Below, one piece after another: positions 4,782-53,264 of a DNA stretch of 53,264 nt. Position 1 is the stretch's first letter; each line of letters starts with the position of its first letter. Source of the stretch: Candidatus Omnitrophota bacterium (GTDB lineage: Bacteria; Omnitrophota; Gorgyraeia; Gygaellales; JAMWDD01); the NCBI GenBank assembly GCA_028717645.1, contig JAQUNK010000007.1, forward strand, positions 1 to 53,264, given 5' to 3'. The position numbers were made by a program, and so were the translations under genes. A model generated the notes under the pieces. It did not search any database, was not told the origin of the DNA, and worked only from the letters and a program-made list of their open reading frames with translations.

Positions 4782-4967
4782 GCGGCTCCCGTCTGCTGAT
4801 CCAAGCCGCATATTGTCATTGCAGCAACGGGTCCTGTCTCTGATCCATCCCGCCCATGCTCGCCCCGACGTAACGTCGGGGCTGCGCGTGGTCGGGAACC
4901 CTGGATCAGAGCCACCCGTTACTACAATATCTACGGGATTTTACGGATCAGCATCCACCCGCTATTT
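4782..4967. repeat. Nested inverted-repeat element (CTGATCCA family, locus 1)
   Basis: The inner element runs from AACGGGT (4826-4832) plus CTCTGATCCA to TGGATCAGAG plus ACCCGTT (4914-4920), giving arms of about 20 bp. It encloses a perfect hairpin CCCCGACGT-A-ACGTCGGGG (4863-4881). It is extended outward by ATATTGT (4810-4816) / ACAATAT (4924-4930). An outer pair of related ends (TGCTGATCC near 4794 and GGATCAGCA near 4945) flanks it, suggesting one copy nested in another. The same end sequences recur near 24833 and 28779. No protein is encoded. It fills the upstream part of the groS/GGDEF intergenic region. Confidence 0.7.
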
Positions 4968-24813: not shown

Positions 24814-24940
24814 AATTTTTACCTGTACGCTAGCGGGTGGCTGCTGATCCAGGGCCCCTGGCCGCGCGCAGGCCGCCGACGAAGTGCGGTCGAGCACGGA
24901 CGGGGTGGATCAGAGACACCCGCGCCCTGTTAAAAATTAT
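24812..24940. repeat. Inverted-repeat element between dapB and dapL (CTGATCCA family, locus 2)
   Basis: The core arms are GCGGGTGGCTGCTGATCCA (24833-24851) and TGGATCAGAGACACCCGC (24906-24923). An outer pair, ATAATTTTTA (24812-24821) and TAAAAATTAT (24931-24940), brings the dapB stop codon and the dapL start/ribosome-binding region into one long hairpin. The arms match those at 4826-4920 and 28779-28826. The interior is GC-rich with GCAGGCCG blocks like those near 5012. Confidence 0.75.
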
Positions 24941-25670: not shown

Positions 25671-25807
25671 AAAATCCGAAATTCTAAATCCGAAATTCTA
25701 AACAAATTCGAAATTCAAAATCACAATTTCCCAAACTGAATTGTTTATGATTTGGAAAATTCGGATTTGGGATTTGTTTCGTATTTCGATATTCGGATTT
25801 CGGATTT
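25671..25807. repeat. AT-rich 137-bp near-palindromic element
   Basis: The left side repeats AAATCCGAAATTCT twice, and the right side ends in ATTCGGATTTCGGATTT, its approximate complement. The centre has AATTTCCCAAA / TTTGGAAAATT arms. It has no open frame and lies between dapA and dapB. It looks like a MITE-type or mobile palindromic repeat. Confidence 0.7.
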
Positions 25808-25811
25808 ATCA

Positions 25812-26717
25812 TTATAATAATCCATAATCTTTTAACGCCTTCTTTAGTTTCTCTAAATTATCATCCGACATTGTACACATCGGCAGCCTGAGATCCGGTT
25901 CACACATTCCCAATAACCCCATCGCAGTTTTTACCGGGATAGGGTTAGTTTCCAGGAATACGGCCTTGATCAAAGGCAATAATTTATAGTGCAGCTCTTC
26001 TGCTTTTTTGATATTTCCTTTCTCGAATTCAGCGACCATGTCCGAAACATCTTTGGGCGCAATATTGGCCACTACCGAAATTATGCCCGTCCCGCCGATG
26101 GCCAGCACGGGTAACGTCAGGCTGTCATCCCCGGAAAGCAGGGTAAATTCTTTTGGGCACAATGCTTTTATCCGCGACATCTGGTCGAGCGACCCGCTTG
26201 CCTCTTTCACTGCCACGATATTTTTACAATCACGCGCAAGTTTTGCTATCGTCTCCGGCTCGATATTTACTCCAGTGCGCGAAGCAATATTATACAGGAT
26301 GATCGGGATATTCACGGCATCGGCCACGGCTTTAAAATGCAGGTAGAGCCCTTTCTGAGTGGGGCGGTTATAATAAGGCGAAACCTGCAAAGACGCATCC
26401 GCGCCGGCTTTTTGCGCATGTTTGGTGAGCATTACCGCCTCGGCCGTAGAATTAGAGCCGGTACCGGCAATCACCGGCACTCTTTTTTTCACCTGCTCTA
26501 CGGTAAGTTCGATCACCCGGTCGTGTTCCTCGAAAGAAAGCGTTGCCGATTCACCTGTTGTGCCGCAAGGCACGATCCCTGAAGTCCCGTTCTTTATCTG
26601 GAACTCGATCAATTTCCTGAACGCTGCTTCGTCAATAACTGAATTTTTTCCGCCGGAGGCGGATCCGCCTTTGGCGGAGAATGGCGTGGCAATGGCCACG
26701 ATCGAACCTTTAAACAT
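25812..26717 (-). CDS. dapA: 4-hydroxy-tetrahydrodipicolinate synthase with in-frame repeat insertion
   Basis: Condenses pyruvate with aspartate semialdehyde, the committed step to DAP and lysine. It is a TIM barrel of 301 residues with Schiff-base K171 (VAVKEASG), TTGES (53-57), SPYYNRPT (113-120) and Y142 (ILYNIASRTG). The start is ATG 26717, with AAGGAG six bases upstream and an 8-bp overlap with the dapF end; an ATG five codons earlier is less likely. Residues 14-23 (SAKGGSASGG), between TPF and the VIDEAAF helix, are encoded by a 30-bp palindrome that also sits in recG. They fall in a surface loop before helix 1 and should not disturb the active site. Confidence 0.96.
   Translation of the reverse strand: MFKGSIVAIATPFSAKGGSASGGKNSVIDEAAFRKLIEFQIKNGTSGIVPCGTTGESATLSFEEHDRVIELTVEQVKKRVPVIAGTGSNSTAEAVMLTKHAQKAGADASLQVSPYYNRPTQKGLYLHFKAVADAVNIPIILYNIASRTGVNIEPETIAKLARDCKNIVAVKEASGSLDQMSRIKALCPKEFTLLSGDDSLTLPVLAIGGTGIISVVANIAPKDVSDMVAEFEKGNIKKAEELHYKLLPLIKAVFLETNPIPVKTAMGLLGMCEPDLRLPMCTMSDDNLEKLKKALKDYGLL
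26649..26678. repeat. 30-bp double-palindrome inserted in dapA
   Basis: Two hairpins of form TCCGCC-NNN-GGCGGA in tandem (26649-26663 and 26664-26678), together symmetric about GGATCC. It adds ten codons in frame to dapA. It is 26/30 identical to the element at 53177-53206 in recG. Confidence 0.85.
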
Positions 26718-27498
26718 TGTATACTCCTTCATAAACTTTTTTTACTTTACCCTCCAGCCATACGTCATCAACACGGCCGGCCTGCCTTTTTAGATATACT
26801 TTTAGTACCTCTTTCCCTGCGGTAAGGACATTGATCTTGACATTGCCTTCTTTCTTTAATTTTATCGCGCTGACCACCGCTGACGCAACCGAGCCTGTAC
26901 CACAAGCAAGCGTTTCATCTTCTACGCCTCTTTCATAAGTACGTATGCTGATGGAATCATTGCTTAAGATCTCTACGAAATCTACGTTCGTACCCCTGGG
27001 CGCAAATTGTTTATGATAACGCACGCGCCTGCCGATCGCGACCATATCTATGATATCCAGGCCTTCCACAAAGATCACGCAATGCGGCACTCCGGTATCC
27101 AAGAAATTTACCTTTAACCTACGGCCTTCGACTTTAATAGGGATATCTAATTTTATATCCTTGGGAGTAGTGAGGTTTATTTTTACGTTATTACCATCGA
27201 CTCTAGAGCGGATGATCCCTGCTTTAGTTTCGATGTCCGCGCTTCTTTTTCCAGAGTATAAAGCGGCGCACCTTGCCCCGTTACCGCACATTTCCGCTTC
27301 TGTTCCGTCAGAATTAAATATGCGCATCCGGATATCCGCTTTTTTTGACCTCTCGATCAAAAGCAGGCCGTCGGCCCCTGCGCCATAGACCCTTGCGCAC
27401 ATTTTCCTTGCTAGTTCCGGAATGCTGCCGCTGCCAGACTTAATCACGATAAAGTCATTTCCCGCAGCAACCATCTTGGTAAAGTTTATTTTTTTCAT
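26710..27498 (-). CDS. dapF: Diaminopimelate epimerase
   Basis: Interconverts LL- and meso-DAP using two catalytic cysteines. They are C71 in EMCGNGARC and C199 in LACGTGS, both present. The N-terminus (FTKMVAAGNDF, 6-16) is the usual substrate-binding start. Length 262. The start lies 3 bp after the lysA stop and the end overlaps dapA by 8 bp, so lysA-dapF-dapA are coupled. With DapL making LL-DAP, this enzyme gives meso-DAP for peptidoglycan and lysine. Confidence 0.98.
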   Translation of the reverse strand: MKKINFTKMVAAGNDFIVIKSGSGSIPELARKMCARVYGAGADGLLLIERSKKADIRMRIFNSDGTEAEMCGNGARCAALYSGKRSADIETKAGIIRSRVDGNNVKINLTTPKDIKLDIPIKVEGRRLKVNFLDTGVPHCVIFVEGLDIIDMVAIGRRVRYHKQFAPRGTNVDFVEILSNDSISIRTYERGVEDETLACGTGSVASAVVSAIKLKKEGNVKINVLTAGKEVLKVYLKRQAGRVDDVWLEGKVKKVYEGVYNV

Positions 27499-52102: not shown

Positions 52103-53264
52103 TTATCCTACTCTAGCATAACCTTCGTATCCCGGAAACTTCTTTTTCAGCGCCTCTTTTATCCCCTGGTTCTGTTTATCTTCCAGCTGTGGGTCCAATT
52201 GCATCAATTTTATCGCTTCGTTCCTTGCCGCTCTTAAAAGCTGCATCTGGGTAAGCGGATTGGCGATCTTTAACTCCGATAAACCATGCTGCCTATCGCC
52301 GAAAAATTCCCCCGGGCCGCGCAATTTTAGGTCCTCCTCGGCAATGCGAAAGCCGTCATTAGTTTCAGTCATAACCTTAATGCGCGCCTTTGCCTCGTCG
52401 CTGGCAGGATCACAAATAAGCAGGCAATAAGATTCTTCGCTGCCCCGGCCGATGCGGCCGCGCAACTGGTGCAACTGGGCCAAACCAAACCTCTCGGCAT
52501 GCTCAATGGCCATTACCGTGGCATTGGCTACATCGATGCCTACCTCCAAGACGGTCGTAGAAACCAGGACATCTATTTTTCCGTCCTTGAAATCGCGCAT
52601 AGTTTTATCCTGCTCTTCCTCGCTGATCTGGCCGTGTACCAGGCCGACTTTAAGGTCCTTGAATGCACCTTTTTTCAGCTCCTTGTACATCTGGTTTGCT
52701 GCCTTAAGGTCCAGGACCAAAGACTCTTCGATAATAGGATAGATAATATAGGCCTGCCTGCCTTCGCTTACTTTCTCGCGGATAAATTTATAAACCTGTG
52801 CGTGCTGGCTCTGTTTCATGCTGCGCGTCACTACCGGCTTTCTTCCCGGTGGCAGCTCGTCGATCACCGATACATCCAGGTCTCCATACAAGGTGATAGC
52901 CAAGGTCCGCGGTATAGGTGTAGCGGTCATGATCAAAAGGTCCGGGTTATTCCCCTTTTGCGGCAGGAGCGAGCGCTGGGCCACGCCGAATTTATGCTGT
53001 TCATCGATGACCACCAGGCCCAGATTCTTGAATTTTACCGCCTCTCCCAAAAGCGCATGCGTGCCGATAACTAAATCCGCCTTGCCGTTGGCTATATCCT
53101 TTAAATTCTTTTCTTTTTCTTTTTTATCCAGGCTGCCAACAAGTAAACTAATATTTATTTTTTTCTGCTGAGATCTCCCGCCGAAGGCAGATCCGCCTAT
53201 GGCGGAGACTTTTTCAAAATGCTGTTTTGCCAGGATCTCCGTCGGAGCCATAAAAGCGGCCTGA
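52103..53264 (-). CDS. recG: ATP-dependent DNA helicase RecG, 5' part outside window
   Basis: Branch-migrating helicase that regresses stalled forks. The visible 387 codons cover part of helicase domain 1, domain 2 and the C-terminal TRG region. Seen are MAPTEILAKQHFE (motif Ia), VVIDEQHKFGV (motif II, DEQH), TATPIPRTLA (motif III), STTVLEVGIDV, QLRGRIGRG (motif VI) and LRGPGEFFG. The wedge/OB domain and Walker A lie off the right edge. Between QHFEKV and the next strand, ten residues (SAIGGSAFGG) come from the 30-bp palindrome also found in dapA. Confidence 0.98.
   Translation of the reverse strand, partial: QAAFMAPTEILAKQHFEKVSAIGGSAFGGRSQQKKINISLLVGSLDKKEKEKNLKDIANGKADLVIGTHALLGEAVKFKNLGLVVIDEQHKFGVAQRSLLPQKGNNPDLLIMTATPIPRTLAITLYGDLDVSVIDELPPGRKPVVTRSMKQSQHAQVYKFIREKVSEGRQAYIIYPIIEESLVLDLKAANQMYKELKKGAFKDLKVGLVHGQISEEEQDKTMRDFKDGKIDVLVSTTVLEVGIDVANATVMAIEHAERFGLAQLHQLRGRIGRGSEESYCLLICDPASDEAKARIKVMTETNDGFRIAEEDLKLRGPGEFFGDRQHGLSELKIANPLTQMQLLRAARNEAIKLMQLDPQLEDKQNQGIKEALKKKFPGYEGYARVG
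53177..53206. repeat. 30-bp double-palindrome inserted in recG
   Basis: CCCGCC-GAA-GGCAGA followed by TCCGCC-TAT-GGCGGA. It matches the dapA element at 26/30 positions and is read in the same frame, giving SAIGGSAFGG against SAKGGSASGG. It lies in a loop after the QHFE helix of helicase domain 1. Confidence 0.85.

Follow-up and report, generated by a model that had tools for sequence, protein, structure and literature searches.

Background

Selfish palindromes inserted in frame within protein genes are best known from Rickettsia, and some REP cases have been described elsewhere. The Rickettsia palindromic elements (RPEs) are palindromic repeats residing in intergenic DNA, functional RNAs and coding sequences; they are found in frame in unrelated housekeeping genes, and undergo both insertion and decay (PMC4316617, PMC10969869). 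In R. conorii, repeats of the RPE type terminate in CGTC (PMC3733652). The hairpins of REP dimers measure 20-40 bp and frequently come in pairs of opposite orientation; such dimers have been identified within ORFs, among which uvrA and the genes encoding DNA polymerase I and a tRNA synthetase (PMC3733652). Bacterial MITEs are short, non-autonomous and dispersed, and may give rise to in-frame fusions (PMC10969869); they measure 70-300 bp and carry terminal inverted repeats (PMC3733652). The double-hairpin elements of Allomyces mitochondria and other short mitochondrial palindromes are very short, and mobility has been suggested for them (cited in PMC5910586 and PMC7218506).

The sequence described here extends this list to an uncultured phylum, the Omnitrophota. 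It is a 30-bp double hairpin which is likely (probability about 0.78) a dispersed, non-autonomous, selfish palindromic element, kept where it is tolerated. Like RPEs, it is found in frame in unrelated protein genes (68 copies in frame 0, many families); RPEs, however, are about 100-150 nt long, fall into roughly ten families and belong to Rickettsia, and their CGTC tag is missing here. As in REP dimers, short hairpins are arranged in inverted pairs, with covariation within each hairpin, but the two units abut directly in a fixed 15+15 geometry, and neither a GTAG or CGTC tag nor an association with Y1 transposases (RAYTs) was found. Two adjacent hairpins and optional presence at a site are shared with the mitochondrial double-hairpin elements. 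The latter are organellar, and in-frame insertion in housekeeping genes on such a scale is not described in the relevant sections of the two papers (PMC5910586, PMC7218506). Small size, lack of autonomy and dispersal recall MITEs, from which the element differs in making no target-site duplication at dapA. We regard it as a new case of a known phenomenon: it behaves as RPEs and REP dimers do, but fails their tests of length, tag and transposase. No earlier report of it in Omnitrophota was found in the open-access literature searched, the coverage of which is incomplete.

Results and Discussion

The double hairpin in dapA and recG

The window, i.e. the whole stretch of 53,264 nt analysed, contains two occurrences of the pattern TCCGCCNNNGGCGGATCCGCCNNNGGCGGA, the number expected by chance in dinucleotide shuffles being 0.00 (Table 1). 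The copy in dapA reads TCCGCCGGAGGCGGATCCGCCTTTGGCGGA on the + strand, and has no mismatch to the pattern. The copy in recG reads CCCGCCGAAGGCAGATCCGCCTATGGCGGA; it differs from the former at 4 of 30 positions, and is read in the same phase. On the - strand of the two genes the copies encode SAKGGSASGG and SAIGGSAFGG, respectively. The DNA of the dapA copy folds with a z about -4. Taken as a whole, the 30-mer too is nearly palindromic, and may alternatively fold into one long hairpin; the single strand is stably folded in either form. No match to Rfam was found for the dapA copy.

Table 1. Location of the double hairpin, its units and host genes in the window, and of copies residing in partial tRNA genes
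Feature	Position or locus	Strand	Basis or remark
Double-hairpin element, dapA copy	26649..26678	none intrinsic (near-palindromic)	exact pattern match
Hairpin unit 1, TCCGCC-GGA-GGCGGA, loop type NNA	26649..26663	none	pattern match and loop consensus
Hairpin unit 2, TCCGCC-TTT-GGCGGA, loop type TNN	26664..26678	none	pattern match and loop consensus
Double-hairpin element, recG copy	53177..53206		2 stem mismatches
dapA (4-hydroxy-tetrahydrodipicolinate synthase), host gene	25812..26732	-	ORF, translation, NCBIfam TIGR00674
recG (3' part, gene running off the contig), host gene	52103..53263	-	translation; Pfam RecG_dom3_C, Helicase_C, DEAD
Copies in tRNA fragments, own genome	C1:96634, C2:66221, C51:5760, C51:6346		loci L002, L003, L006; C51:6346 is a weaker match
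Copies in partial tRNA genes, other loci	L102, L113, L130, L139, L156, L196, L215, L230		
Copies in partial tRNA genes, further loci	L231, L234, L246, L247		

DapA of the window (306 aa) matches the NCBIfam dapA model at 386 bits, and the ten residues encoded by the element are residues 19-28, immediately after TPF. Alignment with a solved DapA (2ehh) leaves a clean 10-residue gap opposite the insert. In the AlphaFold model (mean pLDDT 88.9) the insert is a low-confidence loop, with pLDDT < 50 at residues 23-28, lying between two short strands. A first-pass annotation, made from the sequence alone, had claimed a 30-bp double hairpin at this position of dapA, a recG copy 26/30 identical and in the same frame, and ten added codons after TPF, where known DapA proteins have only a short turn. 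All three claims held.

The situation in RecG is less sharply defined. The length of the loop varies among orthologues at the position of the insert, some of these loops host other short repeats, and no exact empty site could be defined. Repeats of different sequence (e.g. CAGTCGTCAGTCGTCAG, CATCAGGTGTCAGG) were seen after the QHYEKI motif in the orthologues L271, L272, L285 and L290. The loop following QHYEKI may be a spot generally tolerant to insertions.

Distribution among genomes

The window belongs to an Omnitrophota MAG of 1.44 Mb, 94.5% complete. Seven matches with up to 3 mismatches were found in this genome, corresponding to six distinct copies, and none with a reversed control. The match C32:69 was not counted as distinct, since the start of the adjoining contig C32 repeats the end of the window contig, which carries the recG copy. 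Two of the six copies are in frame in genes, four reside in partial copies of tRNA genes. Mismatched single 15-bp hairpins often resemble ordinary coding sequences, and the double form of 30 bp therefore served as the sole marker. Allowing up to 2 mismatches, the element was identified in 115 of 384 Omnitrophota genomes (~30%), with 0-49 copies per genome; the reversed control gave 0 in every one of the 384. Within the order of the window genome it is unevenly spread, being found in 48 of 128 genomes. Dispersal is thereby shown.

An exact match was found in one viral contig among 2.9 million, so that viruses are not a main vehicle, and no plasmid record covered 80% of the element. The searches were limited to Omnitrophota genomes, viral contigs and plasmids, and restriction to the phylum is thus not established. 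Misassembly of MAGs at hairpins is possible, yet many copies lie within intact conserved genes. Many copies are situated inside other repeats. In the genome with most copies (G230, 49), those inspected (L161-L175) are mostly intergenic, and lie within other repeats of the type CAGGTTGCAGGTTT...AAACCTG.

Structure of the element and of its target

The comparison of 168 distinct copies yields a consensus of two abutting inverted 15-bp hairpins, TCCGCC-NNA-GGCGGA followed by TCCGCC-TNN-GGCGGA. The left loop is NNA in 96%, the right loop TNN in 92% of the copies. Covariation of the stems is evident: exactly two stem substitutions are found in 73 copies, of which 60 carry changes compensatory within one hairpin, and none carries changes compensatory within the alternative long palindrome. 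Two separate hairpins, and not one long palindrome, are therefore the structure maintained. Compensatory pairs account for 49 of 52 such copies outside frame 0, and for 11 of 21 in frame 0.

A target preference is also shown. The base at -1 is a pyrimidine in 85-91% of the copies, the base at -2 a T in 67-76%, and the preferred flanks are TTT before and AAA after the element (consensus TTT^AAA). GTAG and CGTC tags are absent as a feature of the ends, each being found in 4 of 168 copies (CGTC/GACG was counted within 6 nt of the end). The idea that all insertions occur at the tips of longer palindromes was rejected as a general rule, flank pairing over more than 3 bp being overall not above shuffles; it does hold for the tRNA class described below.

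Filled, empty and decayed sites in dapA

Most relatives of the window DapA read TPFKNGKVDE (TPF-KNGK-VDE), without insert; the closest ones are Omnitrophota, or are placed among them on the tree. The nearest relative (L026, 87% identity, sister on the tree) has the exact empty site CCATTT|AAAGAC. Comparison of empty and filled sites sets the length of the element at 30 bp with a clean boundary; TTT|AAA is split without any direct repeat, hence without target-site duplication. A long insert is present in 10 of 81 relatives, in scattered lineages. When the loop was left out of the tree building, filled and empty sites were intermingled on the resulting tree, and its well-supported branches required at least 6 changes for the long insert. 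Repeated change at this one site is thus shown; the tree does not distinguish gains from exact losses.

Decay and nesting are also seen here. One dapA (L028) has a single 15-bp unit, and several others (among which L030, L040, L045 and L052) have shortened remnants that have lost palindromy. Two long inserts (L023, L031) contain a second, nested palindrome, in a nested form of ~50 bp. The nested palindrome is of the CCTGCC-GGCAGG type, which implies that more than one palindrome family uses the dapA site. A 30-bp element with over a hundred copies, exact empty sites, recurrent loops and graded decay makes the process measurable.

Copies in protein genes and their reading frame

ORFs of at least 150 aa host 93 of the 168 copies; nearly half of the sampled copies lie outside long ORFs. 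The 93 copies are read as SAxGGSAxGG in 68 cases, as PPxADPPxAE in 16 and as RRxRIRxRRK in 9. Within genes, TTTAAA occurs in the first two phases at a ratio of ~51:49, the third being closed to it by a stop codon. Relative to the target phase, the excess of SAxGGSAxGG is significant (binomial p about 2e-8). The frame bias itself is shown; that it reflects selection for the flexible-linker frame follows if insertions sample TTTAAA-like sites.

Hosts found in more than one genome include GlnA (five genomes, same site), GltB (two, same site), CobT (two) and GlyRS (two). Further hosts include DapA, RecG, DnaK (C-terminal linker), FolC, MnmA, UvrA, UvrC, ArgS, NadA, IlvE, an electron-transfer flavoprotein and a nucleotide-sugar dehydrogenase. 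One and the same enzyme loop has been struck in several genomes in DapA, GlnA, FolC, GltB, CobT, GlyRS and DnaK. Hosts were identified by family models or conserved motifs, and second or later copies at a site by shared flanking motifs. For many hosts the frame call rests on ORF length; family libraries were searched with only 29 host proteins, a few of which had no match. The sample of host genes was drawn from listed places, and is not random. These insertions amount to a catalogue, drawn up by nature, of the loops in which essential enzymes tolerate an insert. By the same token, a ten-residue insert of this kind in a metagenomic protein is not necessarily a functional feature.

Copies in partial tRNA genes

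For 14 copies the joined flanks give a tRNA match that spans the junction (E < 1e-4), as against 1 of 840 random control positions; about four weaker cases show a similar pattern. The junctions fall after nt 17/18 or 21 (D loop), 35/36 (anticodon loop) and 55/56 (T loop). Placement in tRNA loops is shown, as all 14 junctions lie in a loop; loops make up ~30% of a tRNA, and the chance of this outcome is about 5e-8. The figure is rough, some events being probably related by duplication. The fragments that carry the element lie close to an intact tRNA, in most cases one of the same type. Some partial tRNA copies lack the element, so duplication of the fragment may come first, and merely offer a tolerated target. 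The copies in tRNA loops point to an unidentified route of mobilization.

Introns were noted in the vicinity of two double hairpins. A group I intron (L131, 1290-1504; Rfam RF00028) adjoins a double hairpin by which a short tRNA-like duplication is interrupted in one of its copies; a group II intron (L146, 2057-2285; Rfam RF02005) is close to a tRNA-Ser and a degenerate double hairpin.

How the element may spread

Copies are inferred to arise by transposition-like copying, probably of extruded single-stranded hairpins, carried out by an unidentified enzyme; no insertion has been observed while happening. Insertion would take place without target-site duplication; pyrimidine/purine junctions (consensus TTT^AAA) would be the preferred targets, with the loops of partial tRNA copies serving as further ones. 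Among the insertions in genes, only those would survive that keep the frame and whose product, the flexible linker SAxGGSAxGG, comes to lie in a loop able to accommodate it. Old copies would subsequently lose palindromy. A bolder reading, which we consider less likely than not, sees in the element a phylum-wide class of ultra-short double-hairpin mobile DNA, the enzyme of which, distinct from Y1 transposases and from reverse transcriptases, recognizes hairpin loops (tRNA D, anticodon and T) as well as TTT^AAA, with the same surface loops of core enzymes repeatedly rewritten in independent lineages.

Among the alternatives, spread without a dedicated enzyme remains possible, though not likely. 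Recombination or replication template switching at hairpins, along with gene conversion between genomes, could disperse the sequence. In favor of this view, no enzyme has been found, the tRNA-associated copies accompany local partial tRNA duplications, some of which are element-free, and many copies are embedded in other repeats. A phylum-wide consensus, fixed boundaries and NNA/TNN loops, on the other hand, are not expected from generic slippage.

A REP/RAYT system, in which REP-like doublets are mobilized in trans by a REP-associated Y1 tyrosine transposase, is unlikely. Short GC-rich hairpins in inverted pairs resemble REP dimers, REP dimers within ORFs have been published for several phyla (PMC3733652), and most genomes of the order (103 of 125) have Y1 transposases. 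Against this hypothesis, end tags are as rare as reported above, the own genome yielded no Y1 match, no double hairpin was found within about 1.5 kb in 40 Y1 regions, taken mostly from copy-bearing genomes, and copy number does not correlate with Y1 number (rho 0.12, p 0.17). For lack of both linkage and correlation, a Y1 transposase was rejected as the mobilizer. Reverse transcriptases gave no match in the own genome either, and their presence among genomes is not significantly associated with copy number (Mann-Whitney p 0.12). The MAG being incomplete, a missing Y1 gene is not excluded.

There is very little room for a domesticated functional element (e.g. an mRNA-stability signal, a terminator or a DNA-binding site) under selection at each place. 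The hairpins are indeed stable in single strands, but the distribution is patchy among close relatives, decaying forms occur, the host genes are many and unrelated, and the dapA copy has no counterpart in Rfam. Finally, a native DapA/RecG linker under protein-level selection, its codon palindromy being accidental, is all but excluded: SAxGGSAxGG is plausible as a flexible linker and the DapA insert does lie in a loop, but the dispersed copies already contradict this reading. The 30-mer recurs in tRNA fragments, between genes and within dozens of genes unrelated to each other, empty sites are exact, and outside frame 0 paired stem changes are nearly always compensatory.

The selfish element hence remains the preferred reading, and this bears on the broader claims of the first-pass annotation. 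It had proposed an element apparently selected for tolerance within proteins, and writing Gly/Ser/Ala loops into housekeeping enzymes, which the prevalence of the SAxGGSAxGG frame (68/93) and the variety of hosts support. Of the parallel with Rickettsia palindromic elements the behavior held, length and tag did not; the phylum is indeed another one. Checks of the kind it had suggested gave the results reported above: further copies exist in the own and in related genomes, coding copies have been tabulated by frame, and a clean empty site occurs in a DapA orthologue. Neither of the outcomes it had named as fatal, the same residues with non-palindromic codons in all related DapA proteins or no further copies in the genome, occurred. 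Its view of a class of selfish DNA is supported with two qualifications: intragenic REP dimers of other phyla had already been published (PMC3733652), and the copies outside long ORFs, including the tRNA-loop class, form a large share of the sample.

Other repeats in the window

Two further repeats were noted in the window. A long imperfect inverted repeat, with 65-nt arms 71% complementary, lies immediately downstream of dapA (25672-25807). The segments 4835-4909 and 24844-24918, ~20 kb apart, are mutually inverted, GC-rich copies, 81-87% identical over 31-nt blocks, for which we have no explanation.
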